NCBI GenBank assembly: GCA_945888325.1
Contig: CAMDAC010000003.1
Coordinates: forward strand, 124,001 to 188,000
Direction: 5' to 3'
Source: Candidatus Sulfopaludibacter sp. SbA3
Lineage (GTDB): Bacteria > Pseudomonadota > Alphaproteobacteria > Caulobacterales > Hyphomonadaceae
DNA: 64,000 nt
Shown: one piece after another, positions 2,429 through 17,036 of the stretch
Position numbering within the stretch: the first letter of the stretch is position 1
Layout: each line of letters begins with the position of its first letter
Position numbers and translations under genes: made by a program
The notes under the pieces: model-generated
The model's database searches: none
What the model saw: only the letters and a program-made list of their open reading frames with translations
What the model was told of the DNA's origin: nothing

Positions 2429-2794
2429 ATGACACAGATTTCCGCTTCCGAACTAGAAGTCATGGATGTCCTCTGGGCGCGCCCCGGGTTGGCGGCGAGC
2501 GACGTGCACGATGCGCTCGGCGACGGGCGCGACTGGAACGTGCGCACGGTGAAAACCTTCCTCGCCCGCCTCGTCGAAAAGGGCGCGCTGACCACCGTCG
2601 AGGACGGCAGGCGCTACCTCTATTATCCGGCGATCAAGGAAGACGAATACAAGGCCGCAGCCGCCACGCAGTTCATTGACCGCGTCTTCTCCGGGCGCGC
2701 CGCGCCGCTCGTCGCCCACCTGGCCGACAGCCGCGGCCTGACGCGCGAAGACATTGCCGAACTCGAGAAACTCCTGGGGGAGCTGAAGAAATGA
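2429..2794 (+). CDS. BlaI/MecI/CopY family transcriptional repressor
   Basis: ISASELEVMDVLW...NVRTVKTFLARLVEKGALTTVEDGRRYLYYP; start at 2429 chosen over 2372 because of AGGTGG upstream and the operators. Confidence 0.93.
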   Translation: MTQISASELEVMDVLWARPGLAASDVHDALGDGRDWNVRTVKTFLARLVEKGALTTVEDGRRYLYYPAIKEDEYKAAAATQFIDRVFSGRAAPLVAHLADSRGLTREDIAELEKLLGELKK

Positions 2795-4767
2795 TCCACG
2801 CCATTCTCAACGGGGACTTCTTCCACGCGCTCGAGACGTTGCTGGCGGTGTCGGTCCTGCTCTTGATCGTGCTGATGCTGCGCCGACCGGTGGCGCGCCA
2901 GTTCGGGGCGGGCGTTGTCTACGTTCTATGGGCGATTCCGGTTGTGCGATTTTTCCTGCCGCCGCTGACCACGCCGGTGTCGACGCTGAACCTCAACTTT
3001 GCGCCCGCCGGAGAGGCCGTCGCTGAAATGATGACGCCTCTGGAGGCCGACATCACACTCACGGCCGCGCCGCCTATCGTGACCGGCTGGACGCCGGGAC
3101 CGGAGATGGACGCGGCCGTAGCCGAGCCCAGCACATTGTCGCTGGCAGCTCAGCTGATGCCGGCCCTGCTGATCGCCGCGGTCGCGGCCTGGGTCGCCGG
3201 CGCAGTGTTCCTCGCGGCGCGCAACCTCATCGCCCACTGGCGCTTCATGCAGACGGTCGACCGCGAGGCGATGCCGGTGTCTGCGCCGATGGCTGACCTT
3301 GTCGCCCGGATCGCGGCGGAGACCGGCCTGCGCCGTCCGCCGCGCCTGGTGGCGAGCCTGATCTCCCGCGGTCCGTTCGTGACCGGACTATTCCGCCCCG
3401 TTGTCGTGATGCCGGCCTGGTTCGAGGACGACTACACGCCGATGGAGGCGCGTGCTGCGCTCGCCCATGAACTGATGCATGTGCGGCGCGGCGATCTCTG
3501 GGCCTTGCAGGTATCCGAACTCTTCGTGGCGGCGATGTGGTTCAACCCGCTGGCTTACATTGCCCGGAATGCATTCCGGACCGATCAGGAAGCCGCCTGC
3601 GACGCTGATGTCCTGGCCCGCTGCCAGACCAGTCCGCATGCCTACGGGTCCACCCTGATCAAGGCGGCCCGCCTCCACCTGCCCGAACCGGCGCTTGCGA
3701 CTGGCCGTCTGCCCCTGACCCACGCCCTCAAGGAAAGACTGACCCGCATGACCTACCCCGCCCCCTCGTCCCGCCGCCGCATGATCGGCTTCGGCGCGGC
3801 CCTCCTGTTCGGCGCCTCGACGCTGGCGATCACCGCCTCGGTGGCCGCCGCTGCCGAGCCTGAAAACAAAGACACGCATGAATTCCGCATCGAGACCGAC
3901 GGTCTCCTGATCAGCAACGAAGACACCGGCCGCCAGATCGTCCTGCTCGGCGATCCGATGTCGAAAGTCTTGCCGGTGCCGCCGGAGCCGCCGGAACTGG
4001 CTGAACTTCAGCGCCAGATCGAAATCGATGTGGCCGAACTGACCGGCCCGGAGATCATGGGCCCGATCCTGGAATGGCATGACAGCGACGACTGGAAAGA
4101 GTTCGAAGCCCTCGCCGTCGAAATGGCCGAACTTCACAACGAGACGGTCGAGGAAACCGTCGAGGAAAAAGACGGCAAGCGGGTGGTCACCATCAAGCGG
4201 ACCAGCAATGCCGACATGACCGAGCAGCAGCGCGAGGCGCTGGAAGCCAAGCTGGAGGCCAAGGCCGCCGCGCTCGAAGCGAAGATGGCCGTCCGCGAGA
4301 GCGAGATGGAAGCGCATGAAAGCAAGATGGAAGGCCGGATGATCGTCCTCGAGCAACGCATCGAGGAGAAGTCGGCCGAGATCGAGCGGATCATGGAGGA
4401 ACGTTTCGGCGAAGAGTTCGAAGCCCGCATCGAAGCGCAGGCGGAAGTGATCGAAAACCTGGTCGATGCCTGCGAAGATGCCGAGCTGACACCCGGCGAG
4501 ACCCGCATCCTGGAGCAAGCCGATCCGGACGGCGACGTGTTCCGCCTCGCCTGTGTCGAAGGCAACCGCGACCGGCTGAAGGCCGCCGAAACGCTGGCCG
4601 CCATCGACTCCCATCCCGGCATCACCGCCGCCGAGAAAGCGGCCTTCAACGCCGCCGCCGCCGGTGAGCGCCGCAAGCAGGTGATGGTCATCCGCACCGA
4701 TGTCTCGGAAGCGCCCGAGCCGCCAGAGCCGCCCGCCGCCCCGGAACCGCCGCTCGCAGGCGAATAA
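2791..4767 (+). CDS. BlaR1-like M56 family metallopeptidase with C-terminal coiled coil
   Basis: Multiple TM segments, zinc motif HELMH; ATGA overlap with the blaI-like gene. Confidence 0.9.
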   Translation: MIHAILNGDFFHALETLLAVSVLLLIVLMLRRPVARQFGAGVVYVLWAIPVVRFFLPPLTTPVSTLNLNFAPAGEAVAEMMTPLEADITLTAAPPIVTGWTPGPEMDAAVAEPSTLSLAAQLMPALLIAAVAAWVAGAVFLAARNLIAHWRFMQTVDREAMPVSAPMADLVARIAAETGLRRPPRLVASLISRGPFVTGLFRPVVVMPAWFEDDYTPMEARAALAHELMHVRRGDLWALQVSELFVAAMWFNPLAYIARNAFRTDQEAACDADVLARCQTSPHAYGSTLIKAARLHLPEPALATGRLPLTHALKERLTRMTYPAPSSRRRMIGFGAALLFGASTLAITASVAAAAEPENKDTHEFRIETDGLLISNEDTGRQIVLLGDPMSKVLPVPPEPPELAELQRQIEIDVAELTGPEIMGPILEWHDSDDWKEFEALAVEMAELHNETVEETVEEKDGKRVVTIKRTSNADMTEQQREALEAKLEAKAAALEAKMAVRESEMEAHESKMEGRMIVLEQRIEEKSAEIERIMEERFGEEFEARIEAQAEVIENLVDACEDAELTPGETRILEQADPDGDVFRLACVEGNRDRLKAAETLAAIDSHPGITAAEKAAFNAAAAGERRKQVMVIRTDVSEAPEPPEPPAAPEPPLAGE

Positions 4768-12767: not shown

Positions 12768-13163
12768 ATGAACCCTGCCCTTGTCCCTTACCCGCCGGCG
12801 ATCCGGCGCGCGGCCTTTGTCATCGCGGCGCTGCTGGCGGTGGTAATCGCGTATTTTTCGCTGGTGCCGCCGGGCGAGGCGCCGGCGCCGCAGATTTCCG
12901 ACAAGATCCGGCATTTCGCGGCCTATGCGGGGCTGGCCGTTCCGGTGTCGATGTGGTTCGGGCCGGGACGGATTGCGGCGGTGATGGTCACGGCGGCTTA
13001 CGGGATCGGCCTTGAAATCGCGCAAGGGCTGGCGGGCACGGGGCGGGAAGCCTCCCTCGCCGATGCCGCGGCCAACACGCTGGGTGCGGCGGCCGGGTTC
13101 CTGCTGATCTGGTTTATCGCCCGGACGCGCCGGGCTTTAGCGATCACTCGGCGGCGATCGTGA
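12768..13163 (+). CDS. VanZ family protein
   Basis: Small membrane protein with SDKIRHFAAYAGLAVPVSMW...IGLEIAQGL...ASLADAAANTLGAAAG. Confidence 0.8.
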   Translation: MNPALVPYPPAIRRAAFVIAALLAVVIAYFSLVPPGEAPAPQISDKIRHFAAYAGLAVPVSMWFGPGRIAAVMVTAAYGIGLEIAQGLAGTGREASLADAAANTLGAAAGFLLIWFIARTRRALAITRRRS

Positions 13164-13719
13164 TCTCTTCGTCGAGGCGGTAGACGTCGCGCAGGATCAG
13201 CGCGCAGTGCTGGGCGACCGGCTTGAGATCCAGCGGCAGCTCGTCCGGATTGGCGGACGCAAACTCGGCGATCTTGCGGGCGATGCGCATCAGGTCCGGC
13301 GTATGGACGATCATCCTTGCCTGGTGCTCGACGCGCTGCGGGTCGCGGTCATATTCCGCGCCGCCGACGCGCCAGCCGCCGGTGCCGCCGTCATCGGTGG
13401 CGACCACCGGATAAGTGCCGGGATTGGCGAGGGTTACGCCAAACTCGCTGGGGCGCCATTTGATCAGGCGGCGTTCGACGTTCCAATGCTCGAGCATCAT
13501 GTCTTCGTCGTCGTCGCTGACGCGGTTCTGGTTGTGCACGGCCTGCTCCGAGACCAGCTCGTGGGCATGGAACGGGCGGCCCAGACCGCAGTCATAGGTA
13601 ATGCGCAGCGGCTCGTTCACGTCCTTGACCCAATGGGGCACGACATGCTCGATCACCGCCCAGGTGCCGACCGGCTTCACGAACACGCGCTGCGATTTGT
13701 GGAACAGGGCCTTGGCCAT
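13144..13719 (-). CDS. Conserved hypothetical protein
   Basis: 191-aa ORF, coding-like composition; SD-like GGAGACGCAACC before ATG. Confidence 0.7.
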   Translation of the reverse strand: MAKALFHKSQRVFVKPVGTWAVIEHVVPHWVKDVNEPLRITYDCGLGRPFHAHELVSEQAVHNQNRVSDDDEDMMLEHWNVERRLIKWRPSEFGVTLANPGTYPVVATDDGGTGGWRVGGAEYDRDPQRVEHQARMIVHTPDLMRIARKIAEFASANPDELPLDLKPVAQHCALILRDVYRLDEEITIAAE

Positions 13720-13916: not shown

Positions 13917-15032
13917 ATGAATTTTGATTTCTCCGAAGACCAGAAATACCTCGCCGGTGAAGCCCGGAAGTTCCTGTCGGCAGCAAGCCCGACCTCGGAA
14001 GTCCGCAAGGTGCTGAACGACGACAAGCTCGCCTACCACGCTGACCTCTGGAAAAAGGTCGTGGAAATGGGCTGGCTCGGCGCCGCCATTCCGGAAGAGC
14101 ATGGCGGGCTGGGCCTCGGCATGCTGGAAATGTGCGTGCTGGCCGAAGAGATGGGCCGCGCGATTGCGCCCGTCCCGTTTGCCTCGACCGCCTATTACCT
14201 GACCGAAGCGGTCAAGCTCGGCGGCACCGAGAAGCAGAAAGCCGCCATCCTGCCGCAGATCGCCGCCGGCTCCGTGATCGGCGCCTATGCCGCCTCCGAG
14301 GGCCCGGGCAATCCGGACGCCGCTTCCTTGCGCACCACATTCGACGGCAAGACGCTGACCGGCGTGAAGATTCCCGTCACCGACGGCGACATCGCGACCC
14401 ATGCGGTCGTGCTGGCCAAGGAAGGCAAGGGTGTCTCGCTGGTGCTCGTGGACCTCTCGGCCAAGGGCGTCACCCGCAAGCCGCTGCAGACAATCGACCC
14501 GACCCGCAGCCATGCCGAACTCCATTTCGATGCGACACCGGCCGAACGCCTCGGCGGCAAGGGCGACGGCGAATCGCTGAACACCCAGCTGCTCGACCGG
14601 GTGGCCGTGCTGCTCGCGTTCGAACAGCTTGGGGGCGCCTCGGTCTGCCTAGAGATGGCGAATGACTATGCCAAGAACCGCTACGCCTTCGGCCGCCCGA
14701 TCGGCGGCAACCAGGCGATCAAGCACAAGCTGGCCGACATGTACGTGAAGAACGAGGTTGCCCGGTCGAACTGCTATTACGGCGCCTGGGCGCTCTCGAC
14801 CGGCGCAGCCGAATTGCCGGAAGCGGCGGCGGCGGCGCGGGTGGCTGCGTCAGAGGCCTACTGGTTTGCGTCGAAGGAAAACATCCAGACGCATGGCGGC
14901 ATGGGCTTCACCTGGGAAGTCGACTGCCACCTCTACTACCGCCGCGCCAAGCTTCTGGCCGTGCAGGCAGGATCGCCGAAGGTCTGGAAAGAGAAACTGG
15001 TGCGCGCGCTCGAGGCGAAGAATGCGGCCTGA
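13917..15032 (+). CDS. Acyl-CoA dehydrogenase
   Basis: Full-length ACAD; AYAASEGPGNPDAASL, RYAFGRPIGGNQAIKHKLADMYV. Confidence 0.95.
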   Translation: MNFDFSEDQKYLAGEARKFLSAASPTSEVRKVLNDDKLAYHADLWKKVVEMGWLGAAIPEEHGGLGLGMLEMCVLAEEMGRAIAPVPFASTAYYLTEAVKLGGTEKQKAAILPQIAAGSVIGAYAASEGPGNPDAASLRTTFDGKTLTGVKIPVTDGDIATHAVVLAKEGKGVSLVLVDLSAKGVTRKPLQTIDPTRSHAELHFDATPAERLGGKGDGESLNTQLLDRVAVLLAFEQLGGASVCLEMANDYAKNRYAFGRPIGGNQAIKHKLADMYVKNEVARSNCYYGAWALSTGAAELPEAAAAARVAASEAYWFASKENIQTHGGMGFTWEVDCHLYYRRAKLLAVQAGSPKVWKEKLVRALEAKNAA

Positions 15033-15053
15033 GGCAAGCGCCCTCAAACATAT

Positions 15054-15081
15054 CGAGCGGCGGGATCTCTCCCGCCGCTCG
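15054..15081. terminator. Perfect 12-bp hairpin between convergent genes, possible bidirectional terminator
   Basis: CGAGCGGCGGGA-TCTC-TCCCGCCGCTCG; no strong T-run. Confidence 0.5.
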
Positions 15082-15093
15082 CAACATGCTGGC

Positions 15094-15627
15094 TTATTCG
15101 CCGGTGTAGGCGACGGCAGCCACAGGCTCCGGAGCCGACCAGGTGACGGAGTCGGACGGCGTGGTTGCGCCGGCGGTGAACACTTTCAGCGTGGCGGTCT
15201 TGTAGGTGATGTCGAAGTTCTCGACGACCGTCGAATTCTCGCCGGTGTAGGTCGAGTAGTTGTTCAGGACGGCGTCGGTGAGCGTCCAGACCTGCTTGTC
15301 GGACGAGCCGTCAGCGGTGATCGTGATGTCCACGGACGAAACCGGGGTTGCGTTGACGACGTGCTTGAGCACTTTCACGGACGCGGTGTCGAACGTGCGG
15401 GTGACATAGATGCCGCCGGCATACAGGGTCGACTTGGCAGGTTCGACCGGCAGGTAGGTGACCGGGTCGTAGACCGGCTGCTGCGACACGCTGAAGGTGA
15501 CGGCAGTCGCGGAAACCTTGTCGGCGCCCAGTTTGAGTTCGACGCCGGCATGCGCCATCCCGGCAATGAGCATGGAGGCGGCCGAGGCTGCGGCGATGCG
15601 GCGGGTATGCGCAAAGATATTCGACAT
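15094..15627 (-). CDS. Secreted Hcp-like (T6SS tube-fold) protein with Sec signal peptide
   Basis: MSNIFAHTRRIAAASAASMLIAGMAHA signal peptide; body shows the Hcp-type pattern VTRTFDTASVKVLKHVVNATPVSSVDITI...LTDAVLNNYSTYTGENSTVVENFDITYKTATLKV. Confidence 0.65.
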   Translation of the reverse strand: MSNIFAHTRRIAAASAASMLIAGMAHAGVELKLGADKVSATAVTFSVSQQPVYDPVTYLPVEPAKSTLYAGGIYVTRTFDTASVKVLKHVVNATPVSSVDITITADGSSDKQVWTLTDAVLNNYSTYTGENSTVVENFDITYKTATLKVFTAGATTPSDSVTWSAPEPVAAVAYTGE

Positions 15628-15780
15628 ATGACGTTGTCCCTTTGTACTGCGCCGCGGGCGGGAGCCCATCGCTCATCACCCCGGCGCACGAAGGGCATTC
15701 GACGCCCCAATTCGGGATGGAATATGGCAACCGCCTGTCAGCAACCGTTCACCGCGAAATATTTTTACCAAACCGTAACC

Positions 15781-15805
15781 GGGCTTGAAATTCCGGTTTC
15801 AACCC
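15781..15805. promoter_or_regulatory. Inverted repeat upstream of an acyl-CoA dehydrogenase gene
   Basis: GGGcTTGAAA-TTCCGG-TTTCAAcCCC. Confidence 0.35.
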
Positions 15806-15833
15806 CTAGCCAGTGAAAGCAACGGAGACCGAG

Positions 15834-17036
15834 ATGGACTTCAACGATACCCCCGCCGAAGCCGCCTTCCGCAAGGAAGCGTATGACTTCCTGTCGAAAC
15901 ACCTCGAGCTGAAAACCGGCTCGCGCCCGCGGGCCGGCTCCGGCGACTCGGCGCTGAAGCGCGCCAAGGACTGGCAGCGCATCAAGGCCGAAAACAAGTT
16001 CGCCCAGATCACCTGGCCGAAGGAATGGGGCGGCCGCGGCGGCACCTCGATGGAATCGGTGATCTGGGGACAGGAAGAGGGCAAGTTCGACGCCCCGACC
16101 GGCCCGTTCGCCATCGGCCTCGGCATGTGCGTGCCGACCGTCATCGCGTTCGGCTCCGACGCGCACAAGGAACGCTATGTCCAGAAAGCCCTGATGGGCG
16201 AAGAGATCTGGTGCCAGCTGTTCTCCGAGCCGTCGGCCGGCTCTGACGTCGCAGGCCTCAAGACCAAGGCGGTCAAGGACGGCGATGAATGGGTGATCAA
16301 CGGCCAGAAGGTCTGGACCTCCGGCGCCCACTATTCCGATTTCGGCATTGTCCTCGTGCGGACGAACCCGAAGGTTCCGAAGCACAAGGGCCTGACGATG
16401 TTCATCGTCAACATGAAGCAGAAGGGCGTTGAAGTGCGCCCGATCCACCAGGCGTCCGGTGGCCGCGAGTTCAACGAGGTGTATTTCACCGATGTGCGTA
16501 TTCCGGACACGGACCGTCTCGGCGGCGTGGGCGATGGCTGGAAAGTCGCGCTCGTCACGCTGATGAACGAGCGTCTCGCCGTGGGCGGCTCGCCGGGTCC
16601 CGACTGGGGCGAGATCATGACCTATGCCAAGGATGCTGGCAGCATTTCCGACCAGGCCTTCCGCGAGAAGCTGGCCGACTGGTATGTCGCAGCCCAGGGC
16701 TACAAGCTGACCAAGTTCCGCACGATGACCGCGCTGTCGCGCGGCCAGACACCGGGACCGGAAAACTCGATCGGCAAGATCATCACCGCCAACCACCTGC
16801 AGGACATCTGCAACTCGGCGATCGAGATGCAGGACCATTTCGGCATCATCACCGAAGCCGAGCGGATGCCGGGCGACGCGATCTTCCAGCAGAGCTTCAT
16901 GTGGGCGCCGGGCCTTCGCATCGCGGGCGGCACGGACGAGATCCTGAAGAACATCATCGCCGAGCGCGTGCTCGGCCTGCCGCAGGATGTCCGCGTCGAC
17001 AAGGACCTTGCGTTTGACGAGATGAAAGCGGGCTGA
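15834..17036 (+). CDS. Acyl-CoA dehydrogenase
   Basis: LFSEPSAGSDVAGLKTKAVKDGDEWVINGQKVWTSGAHYSDFGIVLVRT; LRIAGGTDEILKNIIAERVLGLP. Confidence 0.95.
   Translation: MDFNDTPAEAAFRKEAYDFLSKHLELKTGSRPRAGSGDSALKRAKDWQRIKAENKFAQITWPKEWGGRGGTSMESVIWGQEEGKFDAPTGPFAIGLGMCVPTVIAFGSDAHKERYVQKALMGEEIWCQLFSEPSAGSDVAGLKTKAVKDGDEWVINGQKVWTSGAHYSDFGIVLVRTNPKVPKHKGLTMFIVNMKQKGVEVRPIHQASGGREFNEVYFTDVRIPDTDRLGGVGDGWKVALVTLMNERLAVGGSPGPDWGEIMTYAKDAGSISDQAFREKLADWYVAAQGYKLTKFRTMTALSRGQTPGPENSIGKIITANHLQDICNSAIEMQDHFGIITEAERMPGDAIFQQSFMWAPGLRIAGGTDEILKNIIAERVLGLPQDVRVDKDLAFDEMKAG

Follow-up and report, generated by a model that had tools for sequence, protein, structure and literature searches.

Hcp, the TssD protein of type VI secretion systems (T6SS), belongs to the same general tube fold class as the tail tube proteins of phages and eCIS (Phage_T4_gp19, gpV). 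In the Hcps of E. coli, removing the first variable loop made no difference, partial deletion of the L2,3 loop abolished secretion, and mutation of L2,3 reportedly abolishes tube stacking (PMC5874247). PEP-CTERM-tagged Hcp genes were excluded, with no function given, from a survey of Hcps (PMC8262886), and in the secretome of a granule-forming enrichment, T6SS_HCP-domain and Phage_T4_gp19-domain proteins were grouped among short beta-rich proteins (PMC12019908). We found no description in the open-access literature of Hcps with signal peptides in Hyphomonadaceae that lack a T6SS, and no relevant report that combines Hcp, CsgG and a signal peptide; Hyphomonas and Hcp occur together there only in incidental mention. 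Here we describe an hcp-like gene in a 64,000-nucleotide stretch of DNA (the window) whose product most likely belongs to the Hcp fold family and works outside any T6SS.

The hcp-like gene and its signal peptide

The hcp-like gene (Table 1) is a real gene. Its minus-strand reading frame has a GC3 of 0.86, and its dN/dS values against eight relatives, 0.13-0.34, indicate purifying selection; in most of these comparisons the signal peptide is constrained at least as strongly as the mature part. An overlapping plus-strand reading frame (14758-15816) was rejected as an antisense artefact, with both GC3 and dN/dS favouring the minus-strand gene. Just 3' of the stop codon, before the convergent acyl-CoA dehydrogenase gene, lies a terminator-like hairpin, of a kind for which the scan background is about 1.0 comparable sites by chance per shuffled region of equal size.

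Table 1. Features of the window around the hcp-like gene, and neighbouring gene pairs in relatives
Feature	Coordinates	Strand	Remarks
191-aa protein gene, cluster c3	13144..13719	minus	synteny anchor; homologue adjoins Hcp gene in genus g5
Acyl-CoA dehydrogenase gene 1	13917..15032	plus	PF00441/PF02771; flanks hcp-like gene
Terminator-like hairpin	15054..15081	minus	12-pair stem, fold z -4.6
Gene for putative Sec-exported Hcp-fold protein	15094..15627	minus	177 aa + stop, ATG at 15627
Mature Hcp-like beta domain, 150 aa	15097..15546	minus	AF2 + Foldseek PDB
Proline-rich stretch, mature residues 21-41	15424..15486	minus	conserved; position of Hcp L2,3 loop
Sec signal peptide, residues 1-27	15547..15627	minus	predicted cleavage AHA/G; sequence + rule-based score
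Acyl-CoA dehydrogenase gene 2	15813..17036	plus	PF02770/PF00441; other flank of hcp-like gene
Exported Hcp + CsgG-domain gene, family f33	L088:5816-7428; L051, L131, L132, L133
Exported Hcp + D-Ala-D-Ala dipeptidase gene, genus g3	L073:7113-8281; L074:6589-7896; L079:7258-8492

The encoded protein begins with MSNIFAHTRRIAAASAASMLIAGMAHA, followed by GVELK after the predicted cleavage site. This N-terminus consists of an n-region with RR, a hydrophobic h-region and the motif AHA/G, with cleavage predicted after residue 27. The protein contains no cysteine, which excludes a lipoprotein.

Signal peptides were called with one rule-based score for all Hcps, allowing equal freedom of start site in both groups compared. 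The score was positive for 28 of the 29 scored Hcp proteins of the bacterial family to which the source genome belongs, the sole exception being truncated at a contig end; a further protein (L026) falls outside the scored set and has a signal peptide visible by eye. Among the Hcps of TssC-positive genomes, 2 of 59 were called, probably as miscalls through unlikely upstream GTG starts. The exported Hcps of the family include full-length proteins that match PF05638 with E-values as low as 1e-31, and a set of full-length exported Hcps (c9) matches T6SS Hcps with a profile probability of 100. It is thus the Hcp fold itself that is exported, beyond the diverged member found in the window.

Hcp likeness and predicted fold

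The window protein scores 28.8 bits with PF05638 (T6SS_HCP; cut-off 23.5), over profile positions 50-127 of 129, and this is its only Pfam match. It has no match at E<=1 to TIGR03344, the curated TssD subfamily of NCBIfam, for which the best exported relative tested scored 57.0 against a cut-off of 58.9. Profile-profile comparison (hhalign) with 55 Hcps from T6SS-bearing genomes gave a probability of 96.2 over 110 columns, in which YVTRTFDTASVKVLKHVV...VDITI...LTDAVLNNYS...VENFDITYKTATLKV is aligned to the second half of Hcp. The segment that joins strands 1 and 2 of canonical Hcp (L1,2; GESxDxxHxxE) is missing. The proline-rich stretch, which has 9 invariant columns (alignment A1), is aligned by hhalign to the loop region of the T6SS Hcps.

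The AF2 model of the mature protein (pLDDT 73, pTM 0.70) comprises strands and a helix at residues 56-64, and was built from an alignment of 11 sequences (the window protein and relatives), a small set that limits its quality. It is weakest at residues 21-50 and in the C-terminal tail, with a pLDDT of about 50-60 in the proline-rich stretch at the position of L2,3. Foldseek comparison of this model with the PDB gave 61 matches with E<=0.001, of which the best was 3v4h (E 9.5e-6), and the best 50 of the 61 are almost all Hcps, from Yersinia, Salmonella, Burkholderia, Acinetobacter and others. TM-scores to PDB Hcps are about 0.5-0.66, for a model of moderate quality. The few matches to other proteins, among them a GspE entry (4ksr) and a VirB4 entry with Hcp1 in its title (7o42), may be constructs with Hcp fused. 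A phmmer search with the window protein against PDB sequences gave nothing useful; within the PDB, the likeness is seen in fold comparison alone.

The first-pass annotation had proposed both a Sec signal and a likeness to Hcp, and had named a fold other than the Hcp beta-barrel as the outcome that would speak against it. The Sec signal is upheld by agreement between sequence features and rule-based scoring, and by the positive scores across the bacterial family. The Hcp likeness is borne out by a PF05638 score above cut-off and PDB matches almost only to Hcp, and the predicted fold is Hcp-like.

We consider it quite probable that the window gene encodes a T6SS-independent, Sec-exported Hcp-fold protein of the cell envelope. 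Sec would export the unfolded protein to the periplasm, where signal peptidase I would cut after residue 27 and the mature protein would fold into the Hcp barrel. A homo-oligomer, either a hexameric ring or a short stack, would probably then form, a step whose chances we put at about even, and the assembled protein would serve as a structural or scaffold part of the envelope or surface. Counting against this reading are the long branch of the protein in the tree described below, the loss of L1,2, the partial profile match, the moderate AF2 model, the rule-based nature of the signal peptide call and the Hyphomonas gene neighbourhood described below.

A sub-case of this reading, to which we give somewhat less than an even chance, is that the exported protein has inherited the Hcp fold alone and has lost ring formation, being a monomeric beta-barrel binding protein of the periplasm or surface. 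It would fit a fast-evolving branch from which L1,2 has been lost, with a profile match confined to positions 50-127 of 129 and an interface loop modelled with low confidence. The L2,3-like stretch is nevertheless retained and highly conserved, and the same bacterial family has full-length exported Hcps with the canonical C-terminal strand.

Genomic context and history

The nearest relatives of the window protein are found in Hyphomonas, where the hcp-like gene lies inside the pair of acyl-CoA dehydrogenase genes and antiparallel to both. This junction was read at 30 Hyphomonas loci. The hcp-like gene is present in 17, and in 12 the dehydrogenase genes lie end to end, ~10-20 bases apart; at one locus (L119, genome G389) an unrelated open reading frame of ~135 aa (RMQPRINLGRIFTVAPAIVASCAATVPLSELAATPNLYEGKRV..., 2616-3005) lies between them, which may mark the junction as a hotspot for insertions. 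The hcp-like gene is an accessory gene: some members of the genus lack it and have a cleanly closed site instead. Another genus of the same bacterial family (g7) carries the gene at the identical place (L087), and its presence is therefore probably ancestral; presence and absence within Hyphomonas imply at least two or three changes. Neither Pfam nor NCBIfam gave a match for the 191-aa protein encoded nearby.

In genus g5, homologues of the same two genes, the 191-aa gene and an aminopeptidase N gene, lie beside an exported Hcp gene, their relative orientation unchanged. The exported Hcps of g5 group with the window clade at an SH-aLRT of 100, in a tree built from a short alignment with long branches, and the window branch itself is long and fast-evolving. 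In this tree the T6SS Hcps include among them the exported Hcps of another alphaproteobacterial family (f33), which would suggest a second origin. Near-identical Hyphomonas-like Hcp genes also occur in entries titled Acidobacteria or Sulfopaludibacter (L002, L003, L006), bins that look misnamed or contaminated.

Other neighbours accompany the exported Hcps of relatives. A CsgG-domain gene directly follows the exported Hcp gene in four f33 genomes; the CsgG domain defines an outer-membrane channel family. The exported Hcp gene adjoins a D-Ala-D-Ala dipeptidase (Peptidase_M15) gene in three g3 genomes, and in g5 a second exported Hcp lies beside a response regulator and further genes (L075:4080-7503, L077, L080), which we take to be a CtrA-like regulator and fliI/fliJ-like genes. 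The CsgG, dipeptidase and CtrA/fli-like neighbours point to the cell envelope, without defining a function, and the CsgG and dipeptidase genes offer concrete candidate partners of exported Hcps. Because four f33 loci pair the exported Hcp with a CsgG-domain gene, the exported Hcp of some relatives may pass through an outer-membrane channel. Shortened exported Hcps were also seen in f33 between short-chain dehydrogenase and MAPEG-family genes (L089:6488-8630, L092:6543-8741).

The Hyphomonas locus has no CsgG, dipeptidase or CtrA/fli-like adjacency and no conserved functional partner, its neighbours being the opposite-strand acyl-CoA dehydrogenases. Exopolysaccharide genes are likewise absent next to the hcp-like gene, which tells against an extracellular or matrix protein that acts outside the cell, in the manner of the exported tube-fold proteins of biofilm secretomes; the window protein also lacks a PEP-CTERM or other sorting tail. 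We regard such a matrix role as unlikely, even with the precedents of Hcp-domain proteins among the short beta-rich proteins of a granule secretome (PMC12019908) and of PEP-CTERM-tagged Hcp genes (PMC8262886).

Search for a T6SS and comparison with known systems

The source assembly comprises 3.28 Mb and is 99.94% complete. Family searches of this genome found no TssB, TssC or TssK, and the phage/eCIS sheath (Phage_sheath_1) is absent from it, with control genomes positive. TssC was found in none of 101 genomes of the bacterial family, 34 of which have an Hcp-family gene. As a positive control, the TssC search detected 52 of 289 genomes of the class and 104 of 398 of the phylum. Among Hcp-positive genomes, TssC was also present in 31 of 37 in the class sample and 102 of 113 in the phylum sample, against 0 of 34 in the family. 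An Hcp-family gene with no TssC match was also seen in phylum-sample genomes G549, G578, G615, G669, G690, G717, G755, G542 and G683.

The first-pass annotation had seen no T6SS genes and had suggested that an Hcp-fold protein is exported and acts independently of T6SS, a suggestion that a complete T6SS using the uncleaved protein as its ordinary Hcp would have contradicted. The surface or periplasmic ring or tube that it gave as an example would have to be built by a protein that lacks the loop between strands 1 and 2 and whose L2,3-like region, important for tube stacking, is modelled with low confidence. The absence of TssB, TssC and TssK now extends beyond the window to the source genome, in which no T6SS was found, and the suggested role agrees with the lack of these proteins and of a sheath, as well as with the same pattern across the bacterial family. 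Support is good both for the export signal and for independence from T6SS. We rejected the idea that the gene is what remains of a lost T6SS, since the core genes searched for are absent and the gene is under purifying selection. More broadly, an orphan Hcp left by a lost T6SS, or a part of some other contractile machine (eCIS, phage tail), is highly improbable despite the Hcp homology and the unlinked hcp genes of some T6SS genomes, since it is already contradicted by the absence of TssB, TssC, TssK and a phage-type sheath from the source genome (and of TssC from all 101 family genomes) and by a dN/dS well below 1, and the signal peptide would remove the protein from cytoplasmic assembly.

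The occurrence of exported Hcps across a bacterial family in which TssC was not found suggests that the tube fold has taken on a different role, in the cell envelope. An Hcp domain alone would be annotated as "type VI secretion system", and T6SS calls based on Hcp in this family would therefore be wrong. Exported Hcps that are family-wide and have no machine also offer a natural way to ask if the tube fold can assemble and work outside the cytoplasm. A bolder proposal, and one we hold to be rather doubtful, is that the T6SS tube fold was recruited, possibly repeatedly, to form rings or tubes in the envelope after Sec export. Such a periplasmic or surface Hcp assembly would in some lineages dock on an outer-membrane channel of CsgG type, making a T6SS-independent conduit or surface tube.

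The envelope protein that we favour can be set against four known groups. Phage and eCIS tail tubes belong to the same general fold class; the source genome has no sheath gene, and PHROGs gave only weak matches to the window protein. T6SS Hcp/TssD (PF05638, TIGR03344), which is cytoplasmic and has no cleavable signal peptide, is alike in domain family and predicted fold, but the window protein carries a Sec signal peptide and is without L1,2 or a TIGR03344 match, and no tss genes were found in its genome. The PEP-CTERM-tagged proteins similarly have an Hcp domain and are evidently exported; the C-terminus of the window protein, PEPVAAVAYTGE, differs from theirs in having no hydrophobic helix or basic end. 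Finally, the exported Hcps of f33 (L051/L088, L131, L132, L133), one of whose genomes (G320) lacks TssC, differ from the window protein in their full-length domain (E about 1e-35), their neighbourhood and possibly a separate origin, but like it they combine a signal peptide with an Hcp domain.
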